NCBI GenBank assembly: GCA_964036195.1
Contig: CAXIWS010000001.1
Span: 94,250 to 158,249, forward strand
Direction: 5' to 3'
DNA length: 64,000 nucleotides
DNA from: Sphaerolaimus hirsutus
Taxonomy: Eukaryota; Nematoda; Chromadorea; Monhysterida; Sphaerolaimidae
The notes beneath the pieces were generated by a model. That model was not told the origin of the DNA. It searched no databases and worked only from the letters and a program-made list of their open reading frames with translations. Below are positions 748 to 50,603 of this stretch, one piece after another (within the stretch, counting starts at the first letter, position 1; each line of letters opens with the position of its first letter). The position numbers were made by a program, and so were the translations under genes.

Positions 748-2966
748 ATTGTTAGCCGGCGATTGCATGGCCGGGTGTACCAAATTCGATTCGAATTCTG
801 CAGCCCTCTGCACAAGCATTTCGAAGATGAATACGGTCGGTGTGCCGGAACAATGGTGGGTGAATTTAAATTATTTTAACTCTGGTGCATGCAGTGTAAA
901 ATCTCTTAAATTTAAAACCACTTTTACTGTCTAGGATGGAATCTAAATACTTTTCACATCTAAATTTTCATGTAGAATTTGTCTTGTCAACATTTCACGT
1001 CACTCACGTGAAACTTTTTACATCAATAATTTAATACGCAGATATATTTTCGCAACGAGTCGGCGTCATTGCCGATAAAGACCTTCGACACGGCCCACTT
1101 CGTGCAACCAGGTGGCACTCCCAAACCCTCCACAGTGTGTAGTGTAAATTGGAAAGGAAAATTCAAAGTAAACTGTCATTTGTCAAAAATTTCCAGATAT
1201 TGTTCAAATTTTTTTTTCAATATTTTAATTTTATGGACAGTTTACTTTGCATTACACTTGCAATTTACACCTTACCTTACAATTCAGAGGGTTTGGGATT
1301 GCCACTAGGCGTTTTGTGGATCAAATTGTGCACCGAATGTGACAAAAGTGGATATCGATGCGGTACGATGGAACAACTCGAAATGATGGAACACTTTTCG
1401 TTCTATGCGCCCATCCCGGAAGGATATGAGGTTATTTACATTTGTAATTTTTTATGAATTTATTTTTTTTCTAACATTATATACCGAAGTATGTTGCTTT
1501 TTGGCGTTAAATATTTTAGTAATATGTAATATTATAAAATAAATTATAAATATGTTCACAATTTTTTTTTCTGTCTGAATTCCGGACTTGGGGAAACAAT
1601 ACCGAAATTGAGAGCAGATACTTGGGAGTATTTTGGGATAGGGATATGGGATTAAATGTTTTCTTGATCTGGTTTTTTTATTTTTAGAGTGCGGTGTCCC
1701 ATTTTGTTTTTCGGGAGGTATCGTGTCTGTCAACTGCCGGAATTTCTCTGAATCACGGATACTAGTATAGATCTATGTTTAAGATATGTTACTTTACATT
1801 ACGATAATCTCATTCATTTATAGGTGACAATTTACGCGGATAGATCGACGGAATTCGTGTCGAAGGACGTCGTCAAGAAAGTCGTAGACACCGCGTACCG
1901 GCTTTGGAACACGGGCAAATTGAAGAAATTAACGTTTTTCGGCTGTGGAACTTTCGAAGACTTGAAGGCTTTCTGCGAGGTATGTTTAACGTTCAAATGT
2001 GCAAAACCAAGATTACACAATTGTACATCTTCCATGTGAAAATTTTTACGTAAAATGTTTGGCGTAAAAAAATGTATGGTTGTTTGGCATGTTTGGGGGG
2101 TTGGGAAGTTTGGCGAGAAAAATTTGACTTGAAAAGTTTAACGTGGAAAGTTTGGCGTGAAAAATCTGACGTGGAAAGTTTGGCGTGGAAAGTTTGGCGT
2201 GAAATATTTGACTTGAAAATGTGACGTGGAAAGTTTGGCGTGAAAAATTAGAATTGAAAGCCAAACTATTCACGTCGGATATTTTACATAATCGGTTTGC
2301 GCCATCATTTTACGCTGATATGTATTTTCACGGTATGAATTTACATTTATATTTCATAATCTTAATTCGAGGGAGAATTTTACATAATCGGTTTGCGCCA
2401 TCATTTTACGCTGATATGTATTTTCACAATATAAATTTACATTTACAATTTATCATCTTAACTCGAGGGAGGTAGTTCATTTTTCGTCACTTTTTCTAGG
2501 TAGTAGTTGTTCAAGGGTGGGGTACAAATATGTCGAATGTTCCCCCCCCCCCCCTAAAATGTTTAGGAAAATGTAACTTCACGGGCACTTATTCGAGTAT
2601 TTACTGTATACATGCCATGTATATATTTATTTACTTTTTTAGTTCAACGTTTACAATTTACAGCCGCTGGACATTGATAACAAGCACTTATATCGCAACG
2701 AATTGGATCGGATGCACGGGGAGCACTTCATCGGCAAGGTGGATTGTCAAAAGTTGTGCGAAATCGAGAACATCGATCAATCGTTTTGTTCACACTGCAT
2801 GGACGATGCATTGCCGCTGTTCCCGTCGTTGCGCCAAAGAGGCCGCCACATTAGGTTAATGGATGAATATCATGAATATGGTATTCACAGTAAAGGGAAG
2901 CAGGAAGGGCACGTGGAAATTGATTATGATGATAGTGGAAAGCGTTCGTTTAAGGCAATTTTGTGA
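748..2966 (+). CDS. Unidentified host gene, five 3'-terminal exons
   Basis: Exons 748-855, 1042-1111, 1309-1430, 1824-1979 and 2664-2966 have GT-AG borders and a single consistent frame ending in TGA at 2966. The 5' end lies upstream of 748 and was not found. The encoded part (about 250 aa) has several Cys pairs (CTECDKSGYRCGT in exon 3, FCSHC in exon 5) and no membrane segment. I do not recognise the family; F-box-associated or similar fast-evolving invertebrate proteins are possible. The third intron shown (1112-1308) is exactly one copy of a MITE. The last intron (1980-2663) carries minisatellite DNA. Confidence 0.6.
1112..1308 (+). mobile_element. MITE acting as an intron (introner-like), copy 1
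   Basis: The 197-bp intron begins GTGGCACTCCCAAACCCT and ends AGGGTTTGGGATTGCCACTAG, so its inverted ends supply the GT and lie next to the AG. Inside are the family's words for sub-terminal TTTACA/TGTAAA arms and a T-rich centre. Removing it joins codon phase 1 exactly between exons 1042-1111 and 1309-1430. Confidence 0.75.
2050..2472. repeat. Intronic minisatellite and 96-bp tandem duplication
   Basis: 2050-2255 is a degenerate array of units like 'gtttggcgtgaaaaattt' and 'gacgtggaaa'. 2281-2376 and 2377-2472 are two tandem copies of a 96-bp unit containing 'ataatcggtttgcgccatca'. All lie in the last intron of the 748-2966 gene. Confidence 0.7.
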
Positions 2967-3977
2967 TTGATTGATTGATTGATTGATTTAATTGTTTCTG
3001 TTCGGTAGTACGGTTCAAACGGCATCAGGAGTGTTATTTTGAACTTTCTAAATCGGTATTGGCGTTCCTGGATCTGTATTGCCTTGTTGACTTTTCAGGG
3101 AAGATATTACAAGATTAGGAGAGATACCGTTTGAATCCGTATTCACAGATAGGGTGTCAAATTTCCGTTTTCCGCAGTCAATTTTATTAAGTTCCGTTTT
3201 CCGGCTGCTGAAATTATTTTTCCGTTTTCCGGCCACCCACTAAATTTTACGTTTCCGGCGTATTTTTAGGTTTTCCGTAGTTTTACCGTTCTCCGGCTCA
3301 ATTTCCACTTTTCAAAAATTTTTCCCATTTTCAATCTTTATTTTATATGTTTCGCCTCATTTTAACTTTTTCTGGCTCAACTTTATGATTTTTGTGAAGC
3401 CAAAATTGTGAACATTAATGCAGATCAACTATGTGAATTTTATCTGTATCCAGCAAAATTCAAAAAAATTTAAACTTGCTTCAAAATTTCAGCAAATTTA
3501 TTCCATTTTCCAGGTAATTTTCGCAAAAAATTACATCTATCCGTTTCCGTTTTTCCGGCCCCTTTTTACTTTTTCCTGCCGCGGATAATTTTCCCCCCCT
3601 TTTCCGTTTTCCGCCAGTGCAATTTTATTTCCCGTTTTCCATGTCCCTTTTCCGTAAAATTTTTTTTTGACGCCCTAATCACAGGTAGCAATCCCAAGTA
3701 AATAGGTTCAAACGATATCGATATAGATAATTGATATTTTTTCAAAATTTTCGATATCGATATCGATATTTGATTTGATATGGAACATATCTATATTCGC
3801 TATTAAAATATGGTCTATATTCGATACTACAAATTTGTCGATATTCCATATATATATATTTCAATATTTTCGATATTTTGCTTTTGGTATAGCCTAGCAA
3901 AGCTGCATATTTTATTGAGATAATATATATGGATGTACAAGTGATTTTAACCAGCAGTATTTGATATCGTTTGAACC
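2967..3977. repeat. Non-coding: TTTTCCG-rich tract and a 270-bp hairpin
   Basis: After a short ATTG run, 3160-3660 is dominated by words like 'ccgttttccgg'. From 3704 to 3977 the ends 'ggttcaaacgatatcgat' and 'gatatcgtttgaacc' are inverted repeats enclosing a GATATC-rich core, so this can fold into one hairpin. No gene seen. Confidence 0.55.
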
Positions 3978-4174
3978 GTAGTCTCAAGCCCTTTCAAGTG
4001 CAAAGTAATGTGTCACATGTAAAGTCAAATGAAAAGTCAACTGTCAATTGTCATGCAAATTTCAGTAATAAAATATTTTTTTTTGTTTTCATTGACACTT
4101 TACTTTGCATGTGACTTTACATTTGACACTTACTTTACCGTTCGCCATTTACCGTATTCACTGCGCGTGCCCCC
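3978..4174. mobile_element. Introner-family MITE, copy 2 (intergenic, degenerate)
   Basis: This 197-bp copy starts GTAGTCTCAAGCCCTTTCAAG, has the same internal words (TGTCAATTGTCATGCAAATTT, TTTCATTGACACTTTACTTT) and ends GCGTGCCCCC. Its right end is decayed and no flanking exons are evident. Confidence 0.55.
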
Positions 4175-4510
4175 AAATATGTCGAAATATCTTGTCATTT
4201 TCTATTGTTTTCAGTTTATTCATTAATGCCGTTAAGTTAATAATGATTGTCGTTATATTAAATTTCTTAAATTTGTTTGTTTTAGCGTAATCGCCCTACA
4301 CACACTACTTTTCACCGTGATCGATGTGAAAACTGAAATGGCGACATGGCTCCATCCAGCCTACTCTTTTTGTATCTATGCTATATGTGCTTTAGTTTTC
4401 TAATTTACAAAGTCTTACTTTCATTAATTTAAACTCAAATTAAATTTAAATAAAATCGTTCAACCGTGTTCTTTCATTTACATGTCTTCACACAAAGCCT
4501 CGGTTAAAAA

Positions 4511-4512
<2 letters not shown>

Positions 4513-4551
<39 letters not shown>
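4513..4551. repeat. (GT)n microsatellite
   Basis: An uninterrupted GT dinucleotide run of about 19 units. Confidence 0.95.
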
Positions 4552-4552
<1 letters not shown>

Positions 4553-5123
4553 GCAAAATATTTTAATAACCTCATTCAAAAAATTAGTTGTACTCACTGC
4601 TGTATTTTCTCTCCCTGGGGGTGATTGCTTCATATTGCTCCCGAGAGGGGGAGTTAAATGAGGGGAGGGGGTCATTATTTCGGTAGAAATTTTTTGAAAT
4701 GCTTCTACAAAATCGTTAAAATACACGAAAAAGTTATAGTTAATATTTTGTAGTAATTACACAAATATTTTATGTACCGTAGTTCATCCAGATACACTCA
4801 GGGGGTTCATTTTTACACACTGAAAATTTAAGGGGGTATAACTTTCTGCATTGTACGTATAAGAACCCAAAACCATTTTTATTTACATTATCTATTACAC
4901 TACATCTAGGGAGAGGGCACGGCTGTATCCAGGGGGGTGGGGGCGGGCGATACAAGAAAGTGACCGAAAAATGCGACTTTTTCAATGTCAGCGTAAAAAA
5001 ATAATTCGCGCAGGCGCGCATTATTCAGCAGACATAAGGTATTATCATCAGATTTGCTCCATGTGGCCGCCGCAAATCTTTATAAATACACACAATGTTT
5101 TGCTCTTCGCTTCTTTGTATGTA

Positions 5124-5157
<34 letters not shown>

Positions 5158-5488
5158 GGTACATACATACATACATAGGTACATACATACATATACCGCG
5201 TTCCATGGCGCTGGCGCCAACGCCCATGGCGCCATGGCATGGCGCCTACTAATGGCGCCAGCGCCATTAAGCCACTATGTAGCTTCAATTGTAGGGGGGG
5301 CTGAGCCCCCTCCCTTGCCGCCTCCGTAAAAAAGCATACCCCCGCTCAAAAATCCTGGATACGTACCTCAGGGGGGGGGGGTATTTAGCGTGGTGCTTTA
5401 TAAGTTCATAGCTGAGAGCGGACAGTATTTCTAAGATATACGGCGCAAATAGATTGAAATGGAATGTAAACTGTCTATTGTCATCGAG
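4552..5488. repeat. Non-coding stretch with (CATA)n tracts and GGCGCC palindromes
   Basis: CATA tetranucleotide tracts run from about 5130 to 5193. 5198-5262 is a dense set of nested palindromes built on ATGGCGCC/GGCGCCAT. The rest shows no gene; several G-runs are present. Confidence 0.6.
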
Positions 5489-5657
5489 GTGGCAATCCCA
5501 AGCCCAGTAAAGTGCCAAATGTAAAGTCAAATGCAAATATAACTGTATGATAACTTTACTAATAAAATCATATTTTTTCGTTTTTATTACAATACTTTGC
5601 ATTCGACTATACATTTAACAGTTTACTTTACACATTACAGGTCTTGGGACTGCCCCC
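5489..5657. mobile_element. Introner-family MITE, copy 3 (intergenic)
   Basis: Starts GTGGCAATCCCAAGCCCAGT and ends GTCTTGGGACTGCCCCC, with internal 'aaagtcaaatgcaaa' and 'tttgcattcgactatacat' arms. It lacks a terminal AG and has no supported exons at its edges, so it is not evidently an intron here. Confidence 0.65.
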
Positions 5658-7701
5658 GGGGGAAACGTTTTTTCATGTATTACGTTGTAAATATGTTCTT
5701 TCGTTTATTTCCGATGTCGTTATTTTTTCTGTAACATATTTCAAAATTAAAATGTAAATATGTTCTTTCGTTTATTTTCGATGTCGTTTTTTTCCTGTCA
5801 GATATTTAAAAATTACATTGTAAATGATCATTTTCACTACTTCATTTTGTAAGTAAATAATGATTTCAATTTTTTTCAGTAAGATAATCAGATATTTCAA
5901 AATAAAAATGTAAATAATCACTTTCACCACTTCATTTTGTAACTATTTAAGATTTTTTCCGTTCCATAATGTGCTATTTTTTTCTAAACATTTCTTTCTT
6001 TTTTTGTAACAATATGTTTAATTAATAAAACGTAGCAGTTGATTTGTCATAATAAATTACAAATAATATAATAGCTATTGGCAAATAATTAGTAAAAATT
6101 AAAGTAAAACAATGAATAAGACCCTTGAATAAGACCCCAGGGGCGTTATTATTTCGTATGACGTTTTGGAGGGGACTTATTCAAGGGGGGTACCATTCAA
6201 GGGGGGGGACTTATTTTTTCCTCAGAACGTCCAGGAAAAATTTCACTTTATTCATTGTTTGTATGCATTCCGTCAACACATCTAATGCAGAAAATGACCA
6301 GTTCAACAAGAACAAAAACAACGTATCCATCCTAAAATTCGTGTTCATCAGCATGGTAGGTATGCATACGCTGCGTACACAAAATGTATCTGCTGTGCCG
6401 TCTCGGCCGTCGGCTAACATTCTTTTGTATTTTTCGTTTCACACACCAAACCCCATTTGCATTCGATGAATCAGCCCAGACATAGCTTTCTTTTTCTGTT
6501 TGTCTCGTTTTCATTTTCGTCTGTTGCTGATCGTTTTACCAAGAGGGGGGACTTATTCAAGGGGGCGGGTATTTTTCGAGGGGGGTATTACTCAAGGATA
6601 TACGGTATATACAAATCTCATATCGAAAAATTTTTCCTTGCTGAAAAAAACAACAACTGAACGGAATGGACAGACAACTGCTATGCTCTGGCTGACATTT
6701 TGGTTTGATGGTGCTTTCGAGATGAAAAAAACAACAAAACAAAACAAAGAAACATTTACAGTATAGTGTATTAATTATTTTCTATCTATCATATCATCAT
6801 TTTCCATCTTGTCCAATCTTTTCACGTCACAAGTCGTTTAGTCGTCGAATCTTTTCACGTCACAAGTCGTTTCGTCATCGAATCTTTTCACGTCACAAGT
6901 CGTTTCGTCGTCAAATCGTTTCCTTCAATCTTTTCACGTCAAGATGTCGTCGGATCTTTCCACGTCACCATGTCGTCGGATCTTTCTGCGTCAGATAGCT
7001 GTAATTCAAAAATCTTTCCACGTCAAAACTTTTTGCGTCAAACATTCCACGTCATCATTTCACGTTACATGCTCGAGCTCTAATTCCGGCTTTACTGTGG
7101 TTACATATCCCACCTGAATAAAGAAACTATTTGTATTACATTACAAGAGTTACATGTATTGACTGTTAAATGCACAAAAGCAATATATCATTACATCTGC
7201 ATTGTGAGAAATGTCTCACATGGAACCCAGACTTTTACTTATTCAATAGTTTTCAAGGCAGATTACAGTGTTAGACGTACACATCCATGTAAAAAAAGTT
7301 TCACACCCTTCAACTATCTGAGACAAAAAGGAAAAAAATTCACTCAAGTTTATCATAGCAGCGTGAGCTTTTTGGTTTTAAACACACACATAGCACAGCT
7401 CACGCAGCTGTGATAAACTTGAGTGAATTTACTTACTTTTGTGCATCCAATATATATTAATGTCCATTTGAGAGACGCACTTCATGTCCATTTGAGAGAC
7501 ACACTTCATCTCTATTTGCTGTGGAGGCAGCGTCCACTTTTTGTTTGGCGTTAGCCATTTTTTTACTGTAACATTTATGCCCAACTTAACTTCAAGTCAC
7601 AAATAGTGATGGCAATCAACAAGAAACAACAAGAAATTGACAACTTCTTGTAATTCTTGCACATTCTCTTGTCAAATGACATTGTGTGGGATTGGCTCCA
7701 G
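5658..7701. repeat. Non-coding: duplicated blocks, TCACGTCA minisatellite, hairpin
   Basis: 5690-5990 holds two or three diverged copies of a block containing 'atgttctttcgtttatttncgatgtcgtt'-type words. 6120-6200 and 6535-6605 carry 'cttattcaagggggg' strings. 6815-7070 is an array around 'aatcttttcacgtcacaagt'. 7338-7432 is a hairpin whose arms contain 'ttcactcaagtttatca' and its complement. No gene supported. Confidence 0.55.
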
Positions 7702-7821
7702 GTTGTGACAAAGAAGCCACGAAACTGATCCGGGAATATTTAATGCAACTGGACCACGGCTACAAAGGATTCGAGTGTCATGGCTTCTTCACGGTTTCCA
7801 GGGCTTTTCTTATCACCGTGG
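7702..7821 (+). CDS. Isolated exon resembling a gustatory-type (7tm_7) receptor C-terminus
   Basis: A 120-bp segment bounded by a CTCCAG acceptor and a GTACCT donor encodes 39 residues that include FECHGFFTVSRAFLITV. This resembles the conserved GFF-(T)-x-R segment before the last helix of arthropod and other protostome gustatory receptors. No partner exons were found within several kb, so it may be a gene remnant or an exon with long introns. The identification is by pattern memory only. Confidence 0.4.
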
Positions 7822-8804
7822 GTACCTATGAGTAAATTGTGATTCAGTAGTTCCATAAACATGGATGGATGGGGTCATAAACAATAAATACTGTATTTTT
7901 TCAAATTATCCCCCATTTGAATTGACCCCCTCCACGCCCCCTCGAAATACCCAGATCTGCAATAATTTACATCATGTATGCACTGTACATGGTATATTAA
8001 TTGCTGCCAATTAGCATCGCAGCTACACATAGACTAGTTTGTCTAGCTACCTACCGTCTCTCCTCGAAATACCTCCCCCCGTGCTGATTGTTTCAGAGTG
8101 AGAATTTTGAGGGGGGGGGGGGGTTAATCGCGGAGGGGTATTGCGAGTGGGGGTATTTCTAGGGGGGGTATTTCGAGGGGAGAAGGCTCATTATTTCGCC
8201 AGAATTTTTTGAAGTACCAGTACCGAACTGTCATCTGTAACGTACGCACATGTAGTAAAATAAAACAATAACCGCAATATGGACTTATATAAGTAAGTAG
8301 ATGGTATAAACACTGTTCGTTGCTTTTAACGTGTGTTTTGCATTGCCCGAATCACAAACCGCTGTTTGGTCATGTACGTTCTCTGTACACTCAATTTTGG
8401 GTGGGGGGGGGGTGTTTCGAGGGGGGCTAATAAATTCATAGTGGCCATTTTGAGGGGGGTATTTCGAGGGGGGTATTTCAAGGAAATACGGTATCTAAAC
8501 TGGTATGACCAAATTTGTCCTCCTTAATGATACAGCAATGTGTTTATTTTCTAAACTTTTTTGTGAACATATGCATGCTGAAGTTGGAACTGGGACCAGA
8601 GGACACTGATACAATTCCATCCTTTGCAGCTTTTTACGGGGGCAGGCAGTCTGCTAGTGATAATGTTGCAGAGCAAATGACTGAACAAATGATACATGGA
8701 TACTTCGGCGATATATTTATTGATAACGTAAATTCTCTAATAATACAACAGTCGTGCTGTATTTGTTATCTTTGTGTTTTCAGCACATTTTTAGGGGTCG
8801 CACT
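7822..8804. repeat. Non-coding stretch with 'cgaaatacccc' repeat family
   Basis: 8055-8185 and 8395-8490 hold strings such as 'gggggtatttcgaggggg' and 'ctcgaaatacctcccccc', a family seen again at 11050-11150, 14996-15205, 25765-25862 and 29145-29285. No gene supported. Confidence 0.5.
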
Positions 8805-9215
8805 GCACTATTGGAGATGTCACATTGGCGCTACACACACTGGATGTCAACTGTTTCGGTGTCTACTCCATTTTTGGTTGCATTTAGGTAGCAGGGCAAT
8901 TTTGAAGGACGCATGCGGCAATGTCAACGAGGAATTTATATTGCCATTGGACACGGTTTCGCAGCCCATAAACTAAAATTTTTTGAAAAACTGTCGGCCC
9001 AGTTGACAGGATGTCAACTGGGCCAACAGTTTTTCATAAATTTTTAGTTTATGGGCCGCGAAACCGTGTTCAAATGCACATGGCAATATAAATTCCTCTT
9101 CGACATTGCCGCATGTGCCTTTAAGAACTGTCCTGCAAGCTACAGTTTCATGAAATCGAGTTGACACTGAAACAGTTGACATCCAGTGTGTGTGGCACCA
9201 ATATTGGAGAGTGGC
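8805..9215. mobile_element. Foldback element of about 400 bp
   Basis: Left arm 8805-9004 and right arm 9012-9215 are diverged reverse complements. Matching words include 'cacactggatgtcaactg', 'aatttatattgcca' and 'cccataaactaaaa'. The centre is 'gttgacaggatgtcaac'. The arms no longer match perfectly, so this copy is older than the two hairpins at 11365 and 58326. Confidence 0.7.
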
Positions 9216-11364
9216 GCATTTTGGTAAAAGGATAGGAAATATTACTGTGAATTTGACATTTCCAGTTTTACAGTATATGGCGATGGCACCTGTCGTATTT
9301 ACCTATGCTTAGGGGTTCGCATGTCTTCATGTATCGTATTGTAAATATTTGAACTGGGGTGGTACCTTTGATGTTAATAAAAGAAAAGAAAAGTGTGTTA
9401 GAAAAAGATGAATAAAAGGGTGAAGTATGCAATAATCATGATTTACTGGACTTTTTCTCTGTGAAATTAGCCATCTTTGTCAAGTAAGAGAAAACGAAAT
9501 ATGTTGCAATTTGTGATGTAATTGCGGTTCCACCACTTCCCCTATGTGGTCGGAGGGGTAAACTGAGCTGCGAGTGAACAAACAATCCGACAAAATCACT
9601 TTATTTCAACGGGGAAAGGAAACATTTTTCCAAACACCCCTAATTTTCCACTGTCCAATGAAATGCATTGCTGTGAACAATAATAGACAGGAAAATCTGT
9701 CTAGGTAATCTGGTTAGGAAACCCCTACTCACGTCATTTTCTACTTACATTATCCCCAACTCCTACATTCAAACAACACTATCCTCCCCTATATTTTGGT
9801 ATTTATAAAAGATACAGGATATTTTTACCTGACTGAATTTTGAGACTGGGCAGTCAGTGTGTGCACAAGAATCATATTCTTCAAATTGTCGGTCAAGATT
9901 AAATATCATTGGGAACTTAAATACTGAATATCAAGTTCTGATGCTGATGGATTTAAATGAAATTAGACACAGGTCAAACAATATTTTCAATTGAAATAGC
10001 ATACAGCAAACAAGCGCCTGCATTTTTATTTGTTGAATTCAGGGACAAATGGTTTTTTGGTCTATTGTACATGAAACACGAATTACAGAATGTAGAGACA
10101 CGAAATCTTCCAGATGTCACAAGTATTACTGTTTGTTACATTGTAATGCAGAAAAAACTATTGGCATCATTTATGATAAACAATTGTTCCTTTTGGCACA
10201 AAAAAAGAAGTGGTAGCCAAGCCTAATTATGGTAAATGAACATAAGTACAAAAATTTGAAGATCTTTTTAAAACATTCTTGATTTGAAGGTCTTTATTTA
10301 TTTGATCATTTTTTATGTGAGAAATGCAAAGTATTATACATGTCACACCACTCTGGTTGTTCACAAAATTGTATATGATGTTGGTGAATCAGGCAAAATT
10401 GGTTCCATTGTATAATAGTTTGAGAAATTCTCCCAAATACACCCCCATAATAAACACCTTCCCGGACAAGTTCACCACCCATTTTTTTATTTCACTTCGA
10501 ACGCAATATCTCCGTCCATGGGGGTGTTATAAGGCTGAAACTTTGTATATATAAAGTTGTAAGACCCCCTTACTCCCCAACAATGGGGGGAGGTGCGGCG
10601 ACTCACTACAGGGTGGGTCGCCCTATATGCAACAATTTTTGTGGCGTTTTTGGTGTCCCAAGCAAGTTCACCACCCACTTGATTAGCTACACTTTGAAGG
10701 CTATATCTCCAGCTGTGAGTAACGATGGCCAAAAAAGATTCAAAAATTCGAAAACATTTTCGAATTTTCGAATTTTTTTCGGAATTTTCGAATTTTTATG
10801 TCACCCCTAGAAAAAACACTTAAAAATCGATTTATTTTTCAAAAAATTCGAAAATTCGAAAATTCGAAAATTCGAAAATAGTTTTCGAATTTTTCAGGCA
10901 ATTCAAGGCAACAAAACACATTCTTAAGTTCAACGTGCCAAATAAAGCGATAATTGATATGTGGCGCGTATGAAAAAGCGAAACGTAACAAAAAAAATTG
11001 AAATGTCATCCGCGGCGGAAGAGACAGACTTTGACACATCCGTTTTTATACCGTATTTCCTTGAAATATCCCCTCCCATCAAAATACCCCCCTCAATATT
11101 TGCCCCATGAATTTATAACCTCCCTCGAAATACCGCCCCCAAATTTGGTGTATAGAGAACGTTTGTGTGGTTTGTTATCTGGGAAACACGTTAAAAACAA
11201 TGACTGTGTTGCGTTAGAACAGTGTTTGTACCGTCTACGTACTTATATAAGTCTATAGAGTCTTATAAATGGCGGTTTTTGTTGCCTTTTTTACATCTGT
11301 GTTACTTACAAAAAAAACAATTTAGCACTGGGATTTCAGAAAAATTTCTGGCAAAGTAGTAGTG
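9216..11364. repeat. Non-coding stretch with TTCGAA palindromes
   Basis: 10735-10890 is an array of AAAATTCGAAAATT words, self-complementary as a whole. 'caagttcaccaccca' occurs twice about 195 bp apart (near 10467 and 10663). An 89-codon open frame at 9957-10226 lacks any feature of a real protein. 11050-11150 carries the 'cgaaatacccc' family. Confidence 0.45.
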
Positions 11365-18617: not shown

Positions 18618-18782
18618 TAGCGGATTTGATTTGGCTTTATGCATTTCGTTTTCAGTGTTTCTTCCAGTATTTCTTTCGACAGGTTCTCCATATATTCTGG
18701 CATCTACATATTCTGTGTCGTAGAAATACAAAATGTTTATATAGAGATAAATATTCTTCGAACATTCATATATAGTGTAATT

Positions 18783-20454: not shown

Positions 20455-20599
20455 TGCTTTCCTTTTTTCACTTATTGCCTTTGGAATGAACTTGCTGAGG
20501 AGAAAACTTGCTTTTATACCAAAAGCTTTTTCATTGTTTTAAGATTTATGATTATACTTTATTCTATAAAAAGTTTTATCATGCAAGAGGACTTATGAT

Positions 20600-21425
20600 G
20601 TCAGGGAACAAAGTAGCACCTAGACAGTCTGTGTGTCATCAACTAGGACCAAAGTAGTATATGAGATAAAATATTTTATACTCTGACAGGTATCTTCTGG
20701 TACAACTTTCCACAGACTGTCTCAGTGTCAGGCATTGAAGCAGTACCTAGACAGTTTGTGTGCTGTTCTGCTATCTAGCACCAAAATGTGAGGTAATAAA
20801 GTAATACGCAGCCAGTCTGTGGCTGGTTGTACCAAGAGGTGGTGGTCAAGTTATAAAATATTTTATAACCTGAGAGGTACCTTCTGGTAGAACCGCCCAC
20901 AGACAGTCTGACTGTTACTTTATTACCTCACATTTTGCTGCTAGCTAGCAGAACAGCACACAAACTGTCTAGGTACTGCTTCAATGCTTGAACTTCATCC
21001 ACATCCATGATGAAAAATGAGCGTCTCTATCAATTAATTATGGTGTGTGCTCTGCTACTATGTAAGACCAAAAATGTGAGGTAATAAACTAACACTCAGA
21101 CAGTCTGTGGGATGTTGTACCAAGAGCTACCTCTCAGGTTATAAAATATTTTATCACCTTATTACCTCAGATTTTTTGAGGGTCAGGCATTGAAGCAGTA
21201 TCTAGACAGTCTGTGTGCTATTCTGTTAGCTAGCACCAAAATGTGAGGTAATAAAGTAACACTCAGACAGTCTGTGGGGGTTGTACTAGGAGCTACCTTG
21301 CACATGAAGGTTGTACCAGAAGGTACCTGTCAGGCTATAAAATATTTTATTTCATATATCACTTTGGTGCTAGTTGGTGAGACACAGACTGTCTAGGTGC
21401 AACCTAACACCTGACACTGAGACAT
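20600..21425. repeat. Complex of direct and inverted repeats (foldback complex)
   Basis: Units built from 'ctagacagtctgtgtg', 'gtgaggtaataaagtaac', 'ggttataaaatattttat' and 'accaaaatgtgagg' occur several times in both orientations, so the whole block folds on itself. Near its middle is a 50-bp fragment matching the Polinton integrase end. The block separates divergently transcribed genes at 20454 and 21663. Confidence 0.7.
20991..21040 (-). mobile_element. 50-bp fragment of the Polinton right end (integrase start)
   Basis: 49 of 50 bases match 58251-58300 in the same orientation. The fragment covers the integrase ATG, its first six codons and the bases upstream. It ends at AATTAATTA, the same place the similarity ends at 58300, which suggests a terminus of the element. 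Confidence 0.7.
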
Positions 21426-21662
21426 GTTTGGTTGCAGTTTTATTATGTACTTATATATTTTTATTTTTAAATTCTTTTTAAAACCGTAGAAAACATTGCG
21501 CGGGCTGTTAATAACGTTAGTGATAACGCTACTTAAATATAATGTTAAATACAGAAAAACAACATTATAGGTGTTTTATAATTTCTGAGACATTGTTTAC
21601 TTTTTTGAAATATATAAATGGGGGTGTTTTTGTAAATGTTAAATATTTTAACTTAACTAAAA

Positions 21663-21898
21663 ATGGCTAGTGGAAAAATGAACTATTTGGATTTCAAAAA
21701 GCAAAAGGCAATACCAATGGTTTGAAATTATATTGAATTTCATCAGTAAATAGATTACATTGAAAAAAGGTATATTTATAGGTAAATGGGCTTACCGGCA
21801 CATACATTCTAAATCCATATAGTTCTCGAGATGTGGATCGAATTGCCCTAGCTTATTGTCCAGAGTTATTCAAGGATTTTGAAGATGAACAGATTTAA
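21663..21898 (+). CDS. Small two-exon protein, 57 aa
   Basis: Exons 21663-21719 and 21782-21898 (phase 0, GTTTGA donor, TTATAG acceptor) encode MASGKMNYLDFKKQKAIPM followed by a short acidic tail ending DFEDEQI. No known family. The clean start and in-phase intron support it, but its short length keeps confidence moderate. Confidence 0.5.
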
Positions 21899-22061
21899 CT
21901 AAGAAATGTTTATATTTTTAAATTTCCTTTAGGTGTCTCATTAATTATTGAACATGCAATTTCTTGTGAATTTTTTTACGATTTGTGTTCTCTGTTCACT
22001 ACATGTGTTTCTCAAAATATATAATTACTATAAAATAAAATTGTTAGACTGATGAAAAAAG

Positions 22062-23902
22062 ATGTCGGAATTTTTTAGTTTACTTCTATTTACTCTTATT
22101 TTGGATCCAGTAAATTCGGGGTGTTCCAAAATTGGGCTCTTTTGTTGTCTAGAAGCTCATGATTTTAGTGAAGGGTATTGCGATGAGAATGAGCTTATTT
22201 GGCCAGATAATTCTAGCTATACCAGTCCCGAGTTGACAAAAATTGATTTATATGGATGCACAGAGTTGAACTGCAGTGGAATTGAATTGGCGTTTCCAAA
22301 TTTGGAACAAGTGCTTTATGAAAGACCAGGTAGTGATCGCAAACTCTGTAAAATGCTCATGTAAAATGCTGCACATCTCAAAATTTCTCAAATATTTTGT
22401 ATAATTTTTTGATAAATTGCTAGATACTCGCCATTCTACAGGCATTTTACAGAGTTTGTGATTAATCAGATTGCCCGTGTGTGATCCTATGTGGAAAACC
22501 GTTGATTATTACAGGCGCCGAAATTTGTAGTAAGTTTATTTGGACACTTTATAAAGTGCCTGTCATGTACAGGCTTTGTCTTGATCAGATTCTTGTGTCT
22601 TATCCCGGGTCACACATAGATTTTGATCGCGGTATACCCTGTAAAATATCATCTAAAATGACTTACAGTCCATTTTACAGGGTCTACCGGGACTAAAATC
22701 TACATGACTAGTCTCATACTAGTCGGTTCCACTCACTGTAAATCCACTGTAAGATACACAGGGACTGGATGTTACAGTGGATTTAGAGAGCTGGAACAAA
22801 CTGGTACGGGACTACTCACGTAGATTTTAGTCGCGGTACACCCTGTAAAATGGACTGTAAATCATTTTACATGAAGTTTTACAAGGTGTAGGATGACTAA
22901 AATCTACACGACTATTCCCTACGAGTCGGTTCCAGTCCCTGTAAATGCACTGTAAAGTAAAGATTTAGTCCCTGTAAATGCACTTTAACACACACAGTGA
23001 CTGGACGTTTACACTGGATTTAGATGGACTGGAACCAACTCGTACGGGACTATTTACGTAGATTTTAGTTGCTGTATACCCTCCAAAATATCATGTGAAA
23101 TAGTTTACAGTCTATTTTACAGGGTCTACCACGATCAAAATCTACGTGAGTAGTTCCGTACGAGTCGGTTGTTCCAGTCCCTCTAAATCCAGTGTAAACG
23201 TCCAGTCCCTGTGTGTGTTACAGTGCATTTATAGAGAAAAAAGGTTTACTTTACAGTCCATTTACAGGGACAGGGACTGGAACCGCCTCGTACGGGAATG
23301 ATTTACAGTCCATTTTACTTTACACTCCATAGTATATTCTATCTTGTTTTATATCGAAGCGACAACAACTATCGTTCCAACGTCAACAGAAGTTCCGAGC
23401 AATGGGCAATTTGTTACTCGCGGGAATACTTTGGGTATTACTCTGGGAATTTTGGGAGGCTGCATTGGCATTATTGGCCTGGCTTTTGGAATTTTTTATT
23501 GGAAAAGGTATAAAATTTATATATGGTACTTTTTTACTCCAAATCTTCCAAATCTTCAAACATCAAATTTCAATTTATCACCCTCTGCAAAAAATATAAA
23601 TAACTTCTTGAAAAAATTTCGATCAAAATGTTATATTTTTGGCTTCAAAAAATAGTCAAAACTGACATTTCAGATGCCGTGCCTCGGAATGGCGTCTGTG
23701 CTTTCAAAGGCGGGGACATCAGATGGAGGCAGTTGAGAATCCGGTTTTTGGTGCCGGGCAATTGCACGATGCAGAGTTTGATGAAAATTGTTTGTTTCGC
23801 AAACTAAAAATACTTTCATATTTCAACAAATGTCGTTTGCAGTCGTTTTTACGCAGGAGGAACGAAACCTTTTGGACACCTACTTTGAATTTCGATAAAT
23901 GA
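22062..23902 (+). CDS. Type I membrane protein with short ectodomain
   Basis: Exons 22062-22329, 23360-23507 and 23674-23902 join in phase. Residues 1-19 form a signal peptide (MSEFFSLLLFTLILDPVNS). A Cys-containing ectodomain follows with N-glycosylation sites (NSS, NCS) and LTKIDLYGCTEL, faintly leucine-rich-repeat-like. A Thr/Ser stalk (TTTIVPTSTEVPS) leads to a Gly/Ile-rich membrane helix (LGITLGILGGCIGIIGLAFGI) and a basic, then acidic, cytoplasmic tail. The first intron (1030 bp) is filled with inverted repeats. Receptor- or adhesion-like; function unknown. Confidence 0.65.
22330..23359. repeat. Intron filled with GTAAA/TTTAC inverted repeats
   Basis: Repeated words in both orientations: 'ccctgtaaaat', 'tagattttagtcgcggta', 'ggttccagtccctgtaaat' and 'ctcgtacgggac'. 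The block looks like several nested copies of one hairpin element inside the first intron of the 22062 gene. Confidence 0.65.
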
Positions 23903-24087
23903 GATTTTTAGTTACTTTTTTTCTTGTGACAACTGTTTAAGTAATTCAACTGTCCCTTAGTATGTTTTCTCTAATTATATTTTCTACAAGTGGTGCATAA
24001 CTTTTTATGTACTTATCTCTTTGGATTTTCATAATTCGTAATTTTGTTTAATTAAAAAGAAAAAATTTCGAAATTGCACTTGCAGAA

Positions 24088-24186
24088 ATGAAGGTACTAA
24101 TTACTATTTTCTGGGTGTTTATTCGCTTTTCGAATTGTAATGAAGAATGCAGTGTGTTTTGGAGCGACGAGCATAGCGGCCCGTGA
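24088..24186 (+). CDS. Probable first exon or remnant: signal peptide plus short ectodomain
   Basis: ATG at 24088 begins MKVLITIFWVFIRFSNC, a good signal peptide, followed by about 15 residues with a Cys pair, then TGA. The layout resembles the start of the 22062 gene. Downstream exons could be those at 25923-26300, but no intermediate exon was found. Possibly a decayed duplicate. Confidence 0.35.
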   Translation: MKVLITIFWVFIRFSNCNEECSVFWSDEHSGP

Positions 24187-24679
24187 GCTTTTTAATAGCG
24201 AATTTATTATTTGGCACTCTGCCCAAATTTGAATAAATTGTAGATCTTGGGGAAAATAAGTTTATATCAAATTACATTGAAAAATTCTCTAAATAAATAA
24301 ATACAATTGAGAACCAAATACATTTTATAGTTGTTTTCCGGAAATAAACATGTTTAAACATATCTGAAATTTAGGCTCCGCCCATATTTGAAAATAGTGG
24401 GTTTTTATCGCAGAATTGCCTATTGTCCGACACTCCCGACAGATTTTGGGGACTTGCGCCGAAATTTGGTGTTTGTAAAGGTCGCAATTGACGGCTGCAT
24501 TCCACATGAAATCGGCGAGTCGTTTCTGCATGGCATTTGAACGGCGAATCCCCGCTTGGGAATCAACAATATTGAGATTTCTTTATGCGGGTCGACTGAA
24601 GGAAGTGGTTTTCAAGTAACACAGGTGCTTTTTATTTACATTTTGTGATTAGTGTTTGAATGGATGAGTATTTGAAGAG

Positions 24680-25760
24680 ACTATGGCGCTGGGGTTATTT
24701 TTTCCGCTATTTTTATCGGCGTCGGGGCGGGACCATGACCTATTATATCGCATTGACAAAAAATTGTGCTCCAGTAATCTTAGTAGTGATATAATAGCTC
24801 GTGGCGCCGACGGGAGTAAAAAATGACGCAAAAAATGACCCCAGAAAAAATGATCCCCAAAAATAAGCCATTATATCGCTTACTCGGGCGACAAAATTGC
24901 GTCGCAGTGACTTTAATACTGGGGCCGTGAAGCTGACGTTATTTTTTCCTATCTACTCAAATGTAGTGAAAAAATGACGTCAGCTTCACGGTCCCAGTAT
25001 TAAAGTCACTGCGACGCAATTTTGTCGCCGAGTAAGCGATATAATGGGTTATTTTTGGGGTCATTTTTTCTGTTTAGTGAAAAAATGACGTTAGAGACAT
25101 GGACCCAGTATAAATCTCACTGCGACGCAATTTTGTCGCCAAGTAAGCGATATAATAGCTTATTTTTGGGGTCATTTTTTCTGGGGTCATTTTTGCGACA
25201 TTTTTACTGGCGTTGGCGCCACGATCTATTATATCACTACTAGGAACAATGGGACGCAATTTTTGTCGTCGAATTAGCGATATAATGAGGGGGTCATTTT
25301 TGCGCCATTTTTACTGACGTCGACCCCACCACCAATTATTTAACTGTTAGTATCACTGGGACACAATTTTTTCTCGCCGAATTATTTATATAATGAGTTA
25401 TGTGACTGGGACCATTTTTCAGACTCTATGACTAGCACAAAAATGGTCCCAGTGCCATAACTCATTATATCGCTAATTCGGGGACAAAATTGCATCCCAT
25501 GGGGTCATTTTTGCGCCATTTTTACTGGCCTCGGGGCCACAACCTATTATTTCACTAGTATCCAATTTTTCTCGCCGAATTATTGATATAATGAGTTATG
25601 GCGCTGCGACCATTTTTCACACTCTATCACTAGTGCAAAACATGGTTCCAGCACCTTAACTCATTATATCGATAATTCGGCGACAAAAATTGGGTACTAG
25701 TGAAATAATGGGTTGTGGCGCCCACCCCAGTAAAAAATAGCGCAAAAATGACAACAGTCA
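24680..25760. repeat. Array of nested hairpins ('cgatataatg/cattatatcg' family)
   Basis: 'attatatcgcttactcgg' and its complement, 'gtcactgcgacgcaattttg' and 'gggtcattttt' recur in both orientations. The cleanest palindrome is centred near 24955 with arms of about 140 bp. No gene in it. Confidence 0.7.
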
Positions 25761-25922
25761 ATCTGGGGTGGTATTTTGAGGGAGGAGTGTTTCATAGTGA
25801 TCTTTGAGAGCGAGCTCAACAGCGGGGGGTTAGAGGGGTATTTCGAGGAAAATCGATGTGGGGTATTCTCACTGTGTTCTGTTTAAATTCCAATTTTTAT
25901 TCCTGTTTTTTTTGCATTCTAG

Positions 25923-26300
25923 CCCGCCCCAAGATTTGACCCGGCCCAAGTTTTTTTGACAACAGAACGACCATCTGACATTTCTGAAGTGCCAATCAAC
26001 GATGAAAATGTTTTTCATGATGCGCCATCCATTAGCGAAACGCCCAGACACCCAGAACATCAGGTAATCAAGGTTTATTCAGTTTTGACTGATTTGCCAC
26101 AAGCTTTGATGTCTATTGGAACTGAAGAGATGGTGTGTCTATTGAAGATTTACATAGAGTTGTTAAAGGAAATTATAATATAAATTTTTTTGCAGTTGAT
26201 TCCAAGCGTACGGCATTTGATCCAATGTGAAAAAATATATTTCCAAAACAGAGATTGTCAAGTTTATTATGCTCAAAATAAACTTTATCAAGAGTGCTAG
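25923..26300 (+). CDS. Two 3' exons of an unidentified protein
   Basis: Exons 25923-26063 and 26196-26300 (stop TAG 26298-26300) join in phase 0 and give 81 residues without a start. The sequence is Pro/Glu-rich (LTTERPSDISEVPIND) then Tyr/Gln/Cys-rich. By position it could be the cytoplasmic tail of a gene starting at 24088. Not recognised. Confidence 0.4.
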
Positions 26301-26475
26301 TTTGAAAATTTTTTAAAAATATTTATTTATATTTTCTTCAAAACTTGAAAAAAATAGAATAAATTTAATAAAAAGATTTGGAATAAATATATATATAGAT
26401 AAATATTTTCAATGTTTTTCTACTGGTATGTTATTGCTAAAGCAAGATTCTATGATCAAATTCTACTTTTTCTAG

Positions 26476-29114
26476 ACAACCAGCGGACCGTCACTGAGTA
26501 GTGTGATTTCTCAAATACCAACTACTTACCTGAGTGAAATTAATTATTCTCTTGAATTGAATCAATGTGAAAGCAGGAAATTGTTGCTGTGGGGAAATTA
26601 TCTCAAATTGAATTCTACTGTGCAAAATTTGCATTTGGAAATTGCACAAATCAATACCTCATATCAAACCTGTTTGCAAACTGCCAATTCAAAAGATACA
26701 GGTCAATTTATTTATTTATATGATATATATATATATATATTATATATATTATGCAAAAATTTCAGATTTGCGCAATTTGAATGCGAGTTTAACTGCCTGT
26801 AATACTAATCTCCCTTTGTTCACTGCCAAAATTAATATGGGGAAATATAACCTATCTCGGTGCTTGGATGAGAAACAAATATTAACAGCTAACATTACCC
26901 ATATTTATAATCAATACAAATTAACACTGGAGGCTAATGATGGGTTGAATCACTCAATAATTCACTGCACAGAGGAAATGGGAGATTATAAAAAAGGTGT
27001 TATGAATTTTAAATATTCTCTGAGAATTTTAATCCACTCGTTTTCCAACTCTTTCAGAATATGTGATGGCAAAAAATGTGTTGCAAATTTGTATCGGAAA
27101 TTTGACTAATTCGCAACAATTGTTGGAGATGCTGAATCTGAATCTCAGCTCATGTGTGACGGAAAATCAAAAGTTGAAATATTTAGATGATATATTGAAT
27201 AGTACAAAAGAGGAACTAAAGTCTTGTTTGACAACGACTCAAACATTAAATGTTCTAAATGCTACTAAGCAACAATGTCTTACAGAAATCAACTTATGCA
27301 ATGAAGGTAATTCTACCCCTTTTTATAATATTATTCAAAATAACTGTATTTCAAAAATATGAATATTCTCAGATTTAGGAGAAGTGAAATTGCTCTTGGA
27401 GGGATGCAAAAGAAATGTGCGCCAGTGCTCTGGTGCCAGTTCAAACACTATAGAAAGTGGGAATATTAATTCTCAATTGGGTTAAAATGACATGGTGGGT
27501 ATAGAGTTCATTTTTACTTGAGAAAAAATGAGGTCTACTCTATGACTACAATCTCATTTTAATCTAGTTGACAATTAATTTTGTCAGTTCTATACTGTTG
27601 AACTGTCTCCTGGTGAGCTGGAAAATGAGAGAAAAAATTACACTAGATGTGAAAATGAAAAGGCCATTTTCTGGGCTAATTTATCACACTTTTATCCACA
27701 GTACAAGCAGCTGCTTATTCAAGTTCTTGAATATAAACTGAATATTACTTATTGTCAAAATAAATTGAGGGAATTTGAAATAGCTGGGAACACACAGAGC
27801 ATCCAGTATTCAGAAATGGTTGAAATCCACAATGGAACCCTAAATAGCTGTTTTTCCGAAAAAGCTACTGCTGAAGCCCAGTTAATTGCCTGGTGACTGT
27901 CCCAAGCCCTGTAAAGTGTAAAGTAAAATGTCAAGTGTTAAGTCAAATGCAAAATAAACTCTCAATTGAGATGCAAATTTTAGTAATAAAATATTTTCTT
28001 TTTTGTCTTGATTGGCACTTACTTTGCATTTGACTTTACATTTGACACTTTTACTTTACATTTTACAGGGCTTGGGAGTGCCCCCAGTACTGCAAATTTA
28101 TCTTTGGGATTTTCAAATTTTTCAAATCTCTCAAATTTTTGGGAACAAAAATGGTTATTATTGAATGATTCAACTCTCACCTCCGACATAATTAATTGCA
28201 CGGTGTGTCGTTACACTATTTTTCATTTTTTTCTGTTCTTTTAATCAACTAACAATTTTTCAGCAAGTAGAAAGTGATTATTGGTTTGGCCCCATTAAAA
28301 TGGAATTGAGATGGGAGAAGATGCCAGGTAAATACAAAGTTTTCATACACAATTTCATGTAACTGATAAAATGAAATGTTTATTAAAATAAATAATATTT
28401 TTTATTTATGTATTACAGATTTTATCCTCCGGCTGATTGGCATATTATGGGTGATTACAGCTCTGATTCTAAATCCGGCTATCAAAGTGTGTGATGAAAC
28501 ACTTCAGAAAACGTCCTTAAACGACTCCCGGATTCAGAAAACTTTCCACAGTTTTGGAGAACTAAGTTTGAGCAGACTTATTGAAAATGCAATTGTTGGT
28601 TTATACAAAGTTTTTTATTTTCGATAGAAAAACTTCTAAAATAATATTTTGTGAAATTTTATTTTAATCGATTTCTATCAACATGATATATAGAAAAATG
28701 TTCGATGTTAATAAAAAAGAATTTTTCAAGACTCCCCCAGGGTCCTATTTCAAAGTAAAAATATCGTAAATACCTTATTTCAGGTGACTACAATTTTGAA
28801 CGTTGGTCATTGGGTGGGAAAGAGATGCAAAAAGTCAGAACAGAGAAATTTGGTTGATTTTGAAAATGCAGTTTCGACCCCAACATCTGAAAATCAACCA
28901 GGGGGAGAAATTTTCCAAGAAATGATGGGGCTGTCGACTATTTTTCCGACCACATCAACCAATTTTCCAGCTCACTCTACTCCAAGTAAAATATTGACTT
29001 AGATTTTGGGGTAAATTTTTACGTATAGTTCTAATCTTTACATATATTTCAGATGTGCCTACAAGCTCAAAAAAAATCTGTTTTGGGCGGAGTGTTTCAT
29101 TTTCTGATGCCTGA
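26476..29114 (+). CDS. Cys- and N-glycan-rich coiled-coil membrane protein (one gene or two)
   Basis: First part: exons 26476-26701, 26766-26996, 27058-27306 and 27373-27485 join in phase and read to a TAA. Second part: exons 27588-27892, 28088-28202, 28264-28327, 28419-28594, 28784-28985 and 29053-29114 also join in phase. Both halves share a pattern of Cys spaced by 15-30 helical residues with many N-x-S/T sites (NLSSC, NATKQQC, NGTLNSC). The second half ends with a membrane helix (FILRLIGILWVITALILN) and a Ser/Thr tail. The junction between the halves fails by phase, so the gene may be broken or two tandem relatives. No start ATG was settled. One intron (27893-28087) is a MITE. Confidence 0.55.
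27893..28087 (+). mobile_element. MITE acting as an intron (introner-like), copy 4
   Basis: The 195-bp intron starts GTGACTGTCCCAAGCCCTGT and ends CAGGGCTTGGGAGTGCCCCCAG. Joining 27588-27892 to 28088-28202 restores phase 2 exactly (a Cys codon). Internal arms 'taaagtcaaatgcaaa...tttgcatttgacttta' match copies 2 and 3. Confidence 0.8.
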
Positions 29115-29704
29115 TTAATACTTTTATGTTTATCGGCGATAACTGTATTTTCCTTGAAATACCCCCCTTGAAACGGTCAAAATCTACATGAATTTGTGGT
29201 CTGTTGGGAAATGCATAACAGACATTCAAAACACTTACAAAAAATTGCACTCTGAAAAATTGACCCCGGGTAATTCGAGGAAATATGATAACTTTTTTAT
29301 TTTCCTTGAATATCCGAGTTTTAATCGATTTATTTAATTCTTAAAAAATATTTATCTAAAAATTGTGAGTTTCAACATTTTACATTCACATGCATTTAAC
29401 GTTCAGATTAAGAATTGGCGGAGTATTGTCAAATTGATATTCCTTGAATAAATTCTTTGTGGTTATTTTCAATGAAAATATTGTGAATGAGGATGTGCAT
29501 GTAAAATGTAGTTTTACTAAAGTTTACTTATTCAGTGGGTTTTAATATTGAGTCTACTTATCCAGTGGGTTTTATGGTAAATCCGAGCGTAATGTATAAT
29601 GCTAGAAGCGTATTTACATTTACTTTACGATTGGTACATCCCAGATTTTAATATCGAGTAAAATACATCAAATACAAATCTGCAGAATAAAGAAATTTAT
29701 CAAA
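29115..29704. repeat. Non-coding with one 'cgaaatac' family repeat
   Basis: 29145-29285 carries 'gtattttccttgaaatacccccc' and a complementary end. No gene seen otherwise. Confidence 0.4.
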
Positions 29705-31183
29705 CTAGGCAAATGAAATGTCTAAAGTATATGCATTTTCTAAGCTTTCGATCAAAAACAACACACGTGCATTGGGAAGTTGGTTAGCGTTGAGGCAGAG
29801 TCCAACATGTATTTCTGGAGCAAAAGTAATATCGGGGATGTCGGGGTTCGGAGTTTCATCAATTTCCTTATTTCCTGGCAAATTTTCTTCCTGCAATGAG
29901 ATAAAATGGTGTCTGATGTGTGATTAAGTCACGCAGACGCATAATCTCAACTTAAAGACACTTCACTAGACACAGATGTTTCACAAAATTCCACGAACTT
30001 TTTGAAGGATACTTTGTATAGTTAGTGGAATGTCGTGAAACATCTGGGATTAGTAAAGTGTCTTTAAGCTGACATCTGCGTGAAGGGATTTAAATACTTT
30101 AAAAAACCGCTTACTGGAATCTGCTATCACAGAAAAAATAGGTCTGTGATGCGCAATGAAGTGTCCTGAAAGTTCCTTCACGCAGAGGCGCAATGTCAGC
30201 GTGAAGACACCTTCGCTAGACCCCAAATGCTTCACGACACTCCATGAAGGTTTGCAGGATACTTTGTATGGTTTGTAAAGTGTTCTGAAGCATCTGGGTC
30301 TAGTGAAAGTCCCTTCACGCTGACATTACACATCTCCGTGAAGTGGCGCGCGGGGCGTGAAGGTATTGAAGTGTGATGAAGTGTTCTGAAGTCCCTTCAC
30401 CTAGACGCGCAATGTCAGCGTGAAGGCACTTCACTAGACCCCAAATGGTTCGCGACACACCATGAATTGGGGGTCTAGTGAAGTGCCTTCACGCTGACAT
30501 TGCGCGTCTCCGTGAAGAATTGGGGGTCTAGTGAAGTCCCTTCACGCTGACATTGCGCGTCTCCGTGAAGTGACTTCAGAACACTTCATCACGCATCACA
30601 CATCTATTTTTTCTGTATACCTCATAAACCACTCAAAACCCCCAGGAGTGATAAATCATACCAAAATTTCCGGTAATTGTTCCTGAGAGCAATGAATCTT
30701 GCATTGAGCATGGGAGACAAGTTCGATTTCAACTCTGGAGGAAATTCCACTCTTTGAAAACGAGAAAATGTGGTTTCTGTATAGAAGGTAATGATAGATA
30801 AGAATAAATATTCTGTAATTTAGTGTTCTTTCGTGTAAAATTTTGGCTCACCGTGGGGATTTTAGATGGAGTTCATTAATTTCGCCAATTTGATTTACAG
30901 TTTCGGCAACGTTCAAATCATGTACTCCCAAAGCATGTCAAATTCACTTTAAAATATAAAAAATGTCGTAAATACAATGACTTTTTATATTTATGGTATT
31001 TTTTATATCTTATAGTGTATTTTTACAGGTTTTGGGATTGACACCTGCTGTAGAAAAATGTAGAACAATATTTTTTAAACTGGGATAACGGCGTAAGACT
31101 ATTTCTTTTGTTAATATGAAGTCACCATAAAAACGAATAATTGCACAATGGGAAAAAATTGTCTCTGAAGTTGAGGGATCCAT
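29705..31183 (-). CDS. Four-exon small protein of the local gene family (member F)
   Basis: Minus strand: exons 31183-31045, 30924-30852, 30776-30662 and 29890-29705 sum to 513 bp with every phase matching and give 170 aa. ATG at 31183 (MDPSTSETIF), stop TAG 29705-29707. IIRFYGDFILTKEIVL parallels segments in members B and C. The C-terminal exon contains EIHVGLCLNANQLPNARVLFL. The first intron (31044-30925) is a MITE of the introner family; the third holds the TGAAGTG palindromes. Function unknown. Confidence 0.7.
29930..30600. repeat. TGAAGTG-type foldback cluster inside an intron
   Basis: Multiple nested inverted repeats of 'ttcacgctgacattgcgcgtct', 'gaagtgttctgaagt' and 'ctagaccccaaatg', including a tandem repeat of 'aattgggggtctagtgaagt'. 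The cluster lies in the third intron of the 29705-31183 gene. Same family as 17128-17395. Confidence 0.7.
30925..31044 (-). mobile_element. MITE acting as an intron (introner-like), copy 5
   Basis: On the minus strand it runs GTGTCAATCCCAAAACCTGT...GCTTTGGGAG, 120 bp, shorter than other copies. The acceptor AG is the GGGAG within the family's end. It joins phase 1 of exon 31183-31045 to exon 30924-30852 exactly. Confidence 0.7.
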
Positions 31184-50561: not shown

Positions 50562-50603
50562 CGTTGCTGCAACAAAGGGGTGCAGCAACTCTTCCGCCCG
50601 GAG

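Follow-up and report, generated by a model that had tools for sequence, protein, structure and literature searches.

A probable introner-like family of palindromic miniature transposable elements in a genomic window of Sphaerolaimus hirsutus

Elements and host genes at the locus

We analysed a stretch of 64,000 nucleotides (nt) from the nematode Sphaerolaimus hirsutus (GenBank assembly GCA_964036195.1, contig CAXIWS010000001.1, positions 94,250 to 158,249), referred to as the window, for which an earlier note had proposed that one family of miniature inverted-repeat transposable elements (MITEs) forms whole introns in three different genes. Our analysis points to a MITE family that is probably introner-like; the case is clearest in one gene (copy A), likely at B and possible at C and X. 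Elements with the ends described in the note are present at 1112-1308, 27893-28087, 31044-30925 (minus strand), 3978-4174 and 5489-5657. We name the intron copies A, B and C and the copies outside modelled genes D and E, while X and F are candidates added in this work.

Copy A (1112-1305, plus strand) carries the inverted repeats GTGGCACTCCCAAACCCTC / GAGGGTTTGGGATTGCCAC and lies between the second and third exons (W2 and W3) of gene W (748-2966, plus strand; exons 748-855, 1042-1111, 1309 (or 1288)-1430, 1824-1979 and 2643-2966). Copy B (27893-28084, plus strand) lies between exons Y5 and Y6 of gene Y (26476-28598, plus strand), and copy C (30920-31044, minus strand), a short hairpin with family-like ends, is located in gene Z (29705-31183, minus strand; exons 31183-31045, which is weak, 30924-30852, 30776-30662 and 29890-29705). 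Hairpin X (22330-22469, plus strand) has family-like ends as well and is intronic in gene X (22062-22631, plus strand), whose first two exons (22062-22329 and 22470-22631) flank it. Both D (3978-4174, with eroded ends) and E (5489-5656) are on the plus strand and fall outside the modelled genes; a short fragment resembling the family interior (5457-5484) adjoins E.

The locus 26476-28598 could also be read as two adjacent genes, since exon Y4 ends in a stop. Exons Y5-Y8 match Y1-Y4 with 28% identity over 101 amino acids (aa) and an E-value of 5e-8, and gene Y may thus be a tandem pair. The alignment stops about 10 residues short of the junction of intron B, and therefore the paralogue was not used to judge whether this intron is absent from it. 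Two protein searches found no homologues of genes W and Z. The introns as drawn in the earlier note do close the reading frame in phases 1, 2 and 1, with the exons flanking A, B and C in phase. Errors in part of the gene models nevertheless have to be considered: pseudogenes, open frames that do not code or exons that are skipped would leave the elements in plain non-coding DNA or inside introns of larger size, and at A, for instance, the frame is also kept if W2 and W3 are skipped. We consider this explanation distinctly unlikely.

Sequence relationships within the family

The note had treated the five copies as a single family, and for four of them this is borne out by profile searches in which the copy in question was left out of the profile: A was recovered with an E-value of 2e-17 (profile of B, C, D and E), B with 2e-36 (A, C, D and E), D with 3.2e-27 (A, B, C and E) and E with 6.3e-25 (A, B, C and D). 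Copy C was not recovered by the profile of A, B, D and E (E-value 9.6, rank 43 among 55 listed matches), and what ties it to the family is therefore its ends alone. A profile built from all five copies matches each of them with E-values from 2.4e-51 to 2.5e-10, values that are partly due to construction, as the profile contains these copies. In pairwise comparisons B is 84.6% identical to D (162 nt), 75% to E (164 nt) and 67% to A (194 nt), while BLAST aligned C with the other copies over 17-23 nt at its ends only, with E-values of 0.24 or weaker.

Each of A, B, C, D and E matches its own opposite strand and is thus a near full-length palindrome; the arms pair end to end in A, B and E, and likewise in D, however with eroded ends. 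Copies A, B, D and E are about 170-200 base pairs (bp) long, which is too short for a transposase gene, and as short, dispersed elements with terminal inverted repeats they agree with the definition of MITEs. The location of D and E outside modelled genes, in the same family as A and B, upholds the claim of the note that the elements are dispersed. Folded as RNA, the predicted hairpins have z-scores of -9.7 (A), -14.1 (B), -7.5 (C) and -8.0 (X), versus -0.6, +0.9 and -0.3 for three ordinary introns. Judged from these comparisons, A, B, D and E form a firm and apparently fairly old family, and C is a possible member by virtue of its ends. A chance likeness was considered and rejected for A, B, D and E owing to the leave-one-out profiles; for C and X the tie consists of the ends. 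The proposal of one family in three genes accordingly stands for the genes of A and B, and at gene Z it depends on the ends of C.

The consensus of the family ends is GTGGCAATCCCAAGCCC; five of the seven ends that enter it start with GTG and two (the right ends of B and E) with GGG. Searched against both strands of the window (127,946 positions), the left end of C shows 19/27 matches to a consensus built without C, which places it among the eight best positions, level with position 62912. The left end of X has 19/27 matches to the consensus of all seven ends and ranks eighth, right after the seven source ends themselves; against the consensus without C it has 18/27, level with two other places. 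Its right end has 17/27 and is among 16 positions that score at least 17, a level also reached by unrelated places. BLAST aligns X with copies B, C and E in matching register (best E-value 0.004), while the profile of A-E matched an inner part of X (E-value 1) and not X as a whole. We regard X as a possible diverged member of the family. 

Candidate F (62912-62983, plus strand) is a possible left end with 18/27 or 19/27 matches to the end consensus and a profile E-value of 0.036; a right end was not seen. Immediately before F comes an open frame of exon-like character (62771-62911; P 0.005), and it closes with CAG/GT (here and below the slash within a splice motif marks the exon-intron border). 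Since searches at the level of 17-18/27 also return unrelated places (23283, 36691, 31525 and others), the right end of X (17) and position 62912 (18-19) are near noise. For comparison, the best match of a six-copy profile to 20 dinucleotide-shuffled windows had an E-value of 0.07.

Behind F we found a hAT-like insertion (63005-63540), whose ends are TAGGGATGGCC / GGCCATCCCTA; the sequence CTCTCGGC stands on both sides of it as an 8-bp direct repeat. A minisatellite with CATTTGACACTTT-like units (63549-64000) resembles the arms of the family (profile E-values 0.0003 to 0.01) and is perhaps a tandem amplification of the family interior. Beyond the window, a 17-base pattern of the end occurred in 36 stretches of viral contigs, by estimate about the level expected by chance, and a profile search of these 36 gave one match with an E-value of 0.63; a 25-base core pattern had no matches in the viral_contigs collection, and a 24-base form of the core pattern had none in genome_contigs.

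Intron ends and element ends

For 16 modelled introns of the window we tested the two outermost 60-nt segments (or the halves of a shorter intron) as inverted repeats against 500 two-base-block shuffles, taking the borders of A, B and C from the earlier note; intron X2 (from 22632) and F, whose borders are uncertain, were left out. At A, B, C and X none of the 500 shuffles reached the observed inverted repeats, and the arms start within 0-10 nt of the splice sites as drawn. In the remaining 12 introns, all at least 60 nt long, no such ends stood out from the shuffles (p 0.116 to 1.0). Provided that the borders are as drawn, the similarity between introns A and B would reach near both splice sites, while C and X share only their ends with the others. 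At A, exon-like sequence in phase touches both ends of the element, and no remnant of a host intron is left as drawn.

Introns with inverted-repeat ends could also be hairpin introns that gene conversion or exon shuffling has passed from gene to gene, with no mobile element involved. Inverted repeats are common here (197 pairs in the first 33 kb, the longest mostly unrelated to the family), which would suit such a process. However, D and E belong to the same family and sit outside modelled genes, and the host proteins show no cross-match to each other at an E-value of 0.1. We therefore regard this spread as highly improbable.

Splice junctions

To define the junctions we counted every combination of a GT and an AG near the element that keeps the frame without a stop, and we ran a gene finder in three settings. 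Its codon model was built with the eight flanking exons excluded, and its splice matrices came from the 12 ordinary introns, part of which adjoin exons beside the elements. In all four genes the gene finder set one splice site or more within the element, and in gene W it set both (two of three settings). The best-scoring intron at A runs from 1112 to 1287: its donor (CAG/GTGGCA) is the terminal GT of the element, with 1112 being the first base, and was chosen in two of three settings, while the acceptor TTACAATTCAG in the right arm, at the 97th percentile of the plus-strand AGs of 1-33000, was chosen in all three. This acceptor lies 21 nt inside the claimed end at 1308, which was chosen in none. 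At B the best-scoring intron (27850-28068) combines a donor 43 nt upstream of the element with the acceptor ACATTTTACAG in the right arm; acceptor 28068 was picked in all three settings and the border donor 27893 in none. At C all four frame-keeping junctions have one acceptor in common, GCTTTGGGAG, which lies within the right repeat at 30925 and was taken by the gene finder in all three settings, as opposed to none for donor 31044. The donor of X (CAG/GTAGTG, at the first base of the hairpin, 22330) was selected in all settings, the inner acceptor 22452 in one and the outer acceptor 22469 in none.

Within the right arm stands CAATTCAG in A and CATTTTACAG in B and X, similar to the acceptors of ordinary introns in this window, which look like nematode acceptors; the inner CATTTTACAG site of X is not among its frame-keeping junctions. 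A second possible AG is offered by the far flank, as TAG in the case of A and as CAG in those of B and X. Thus, of the claim that the element ends double as splice sites, the part concerning the left GT is supported at A and X, while on the right the better acceptors of A and B lie inside the arm and not at the border. The drawn junctions keep the frame, but they are not unique: frame-keeping, stop-free alternatives number 27 for A (29 in a looser count), 5 for B, 4 for C and 8 for X.

According to these models, both likely splice sites of A are inside the element, for which an introner is the best single explanation. At B and C the acceptor lies in the element and the donor may be the host's, and at X the donor lies in the element and the acceptor may be the host's. 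The earlier view of the elements as introner-like insertions is hence most convincing at A and leaves room at B, C and X for a contribution of the host.

Proposed insertion into exons or capture of splice sites

Our preferred reading, which we hold tentatively and at somewhat less than even confidence, is that non-autonomous palindromic MITEs inserted into coding exons and are removed as spliceosomal introns, or as most of them. Besides the failure of C in the leave-one-out search, several results weigh against it. The number of possible junctions given above is one; another is that the border-to-border intron was never the choice of the gene finder in any of the four genes. At B this intron (27893-28087) scores 5.5 bits below 27850-28068, and in total score the border model is first neither at A nor at B; at C it is a close second (-4.9 vs -4.6). 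The outer acceptors rank low, with 1308 at the 4th percentile (among the plus-strand AGs of 1-33000), 28087 at the 8th and 30925 at the 35th.

The same kind of evidence bears on the possibility that introns were already present where the elements inserted, either within them or at their margin, and that one splice site was captured while the other remained the host's, so that introns were reshaped and not created. The best intron of B begins 43 nt before the element, the donors outside and inside the element are nearly tied at C (-4.6 and -4.9), and X has, in addition to the frame-keeping acceptor ATCAG at its outer end (22469), a second one, TTATTACAG, 45 nt past the hairpin (22514). Other hairpin arrays of the window also sit within larger introns. 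Yet A as drawn has no host intron on either side, and because no ordinary intron modelled here is shorter than 60 nt, an old intron at this place would have to be lost nearly completely. Moreover, the capture of single sites would hardly produce inverted-repeat ends close to both splice sites in four introns. We consider this reshaping of old introns rather unlikely.

Possible target-site duplication and proposed mechanism

Flanking duplications were examined for A, B, C, X and E; D was left out. The best common register of a 3-bp duplication coincides with the exact borders of the elements (9/15 positions match), with the pairs CAG and TAG for A, CTG and CAG for B, CAG and CAG for X, GAG and CGG for E, and ATC and CTG for C. 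The duplication is exact at X only, and C fails. All flanks of A, B, X and E differ from CAG by at most one change, which does not apply to the right end of C. In the common-register scan, a 2-bp match located 5 nt inside the repeats scored 0.70, versus 0.60 for the 3-bp match at the borders, and we put it down to the repeats themselves. Splicing biases the intron copies to CAG at both sites, and thus E, with its inexact pair, is the only complete unbiased copy with usable ends. Given this bias and the inexact flanks of E, a 3-bp CAG-like target duplication at the element borders is offered here as a hypothesis. 

An origin from hAT transposons, with an 8-bp duplication and CAG as part of the repeat, was considered and rejected: near the ends of these five elements there is no exact duplication of 5-9 bp within small shifts, nor one of 8-9 bp with one mismatch.

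The insertion of MITEs into exons could proceed as follows. A non-autonomous, almost fully palindromic element of about 120-200 bp would insert into a protein-coding exon, and as its inverted repeat usually starts with GT, insertion behind CAG would create a CAG/GT donor. Two sources of the acceptor come into question: at the far end, the second copy of a 3-bp target duplication resembling CAG, and in the right arm the motif TTCAG / TTTTACAG. If the outer acceptor is used, the element would be removed together with one copy of the duplication, without a trace, a course known from introners; if the inner acceptor is used, the outer part of the repeat would be kept in the mRNA and add a few codons, which number seven at A. 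The weak 3-bp CAG-like duplications would agree with a donor GT supplied by the repeat and an acceptor AG supplied by the duplication. We infer for A, and with more reserve for B, C and X, that such splicing takes place and that the insertion was into an exon and not into an old intron.

A bolder variant can be derived from the palindrome itself. The motif CTGTAAAR in one arm is the reverse complement of YTTTACAG in the other (B and X have the pair, C and E have part of it, and A lacks it), and most ends start with GT, so that an element of this kind could bring both splice sites along in either orientation of insertion. An orientation-free introner in a nematode-like animal, which would have made 4 of the 16 modelled introns and left some codons of its repeats in the coding sequence, seems improbable to us on present grounds.

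Relationship to known elements

Introners of the DNA-transposon type have reportedly been described by Huff et al. in 2016. A later survey, as far as its available text goes, presents families that have inverted repeats, families that take one of their splice sites from the target duplication and families that add codons; it names copepods and reports introners in only two animal groups, and "nematod" does not occur in its main text (Gozashti et al. 2022, PMC9860276). The accessible portions of two further papers report no introners in nematodes (PMC9169325, PMC13326754). The DNA-transposon introners covered by the accessible text of the survey are like the present elements in being short and non-autonomous, some with inverted repeats, and in forming whole introns (PMC9860276), whereas here the palindrome is full-length and we have a few copies in one window and not a genome-wide count. 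The introner elements of Amoebophrya, by the excerpted description, also have inverted repeats at the intron ends, 3-5 nt direct repeats over the exon borders and predicted stem-loops, but they form mostly non-canonical introns of a dinoflagellate (PMC7789003). The introns considered here are GT-AG.

Among animals, introns of the tunicate Fritillaria are said to have been proposed as MITE-derived (Henriet et al., 2019); the likeness is that of animal introns proposed to come from inverted-repeat elements, and the difference is that the splice sites there are reportedly non-canonical.

As to the transposon group, the closest features were found in NuwaI, a PIF/Harbinger-like (PHIS) group, for which the consulted part of the source gives 3-bp CWG duplications, repeats that usually start with GGG, and occurrence in animals (PMC4482050). 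The repeats starting with G and the animal host are shared with the family described here, and so, possibly, is the 3-bp CWG duplication. However, the ends here begin with GTG in five of seven cases and with GGG in two, and the duplications are imperfect. Since the repeats of NuwaI usually start with GGG, we did not file the family in this group.

Other features of the window

A Maverick/Polinton-like element (32469-58286) is interrupted by a BEL/Pao retroelement. The Maverick/Polinton-like element encodes an integrase core domain in the frame 58286-57471 (Pfam E-value 1.2e-8), and the frames at 34471-39192 are presumably a B-type DNA polymerase-like set, named by a motif; the two of these frames that were scanned in Pfam gave no polymerase match. 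Searching with a Maverick protein matched two stretches by pattern, neither of them a relative. The BEL/Pao retroelement (39932-51881) contains one unbroken frame of 2946 aa with a Monjiviricetes-type fusion glycoprotein domain (Pfam E-value 5e-15). Identical pairs of short frames at 39932-40611 and 51202-51881 suggest that these segments are young terminal repeats. Three of its 120 listed relatives, including the best named one, are from the nematode Plectus sambesii (44-48% identity), a hint at a nematode host, and named ones lower in the list include sponges, corals and molluscs.

Other arrays of long hairpins, with arms of 50-140 nt, are found at 22613-23277, 24759-25736, 29944-30598, 20613-21403 and 8824-9202, the first and third of which sit in introns as modelled. 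An Rfam scan of the window reported no family above threshold.

Implications

The origin of new introns has long been debated; introners are among the clearest answers, and few animals have them. At A and B the motif in the inner arm scores higher as an acceptor than the outer border does, which points to a way in which an element could be spliced before its ends are ideal. If the reading of these MITEs as introners is true, another animal lineage would be added to those with introners, and with copies both inside and outside genes the birth of introns would become datable and the choice of splice sites measurable copy by copy.

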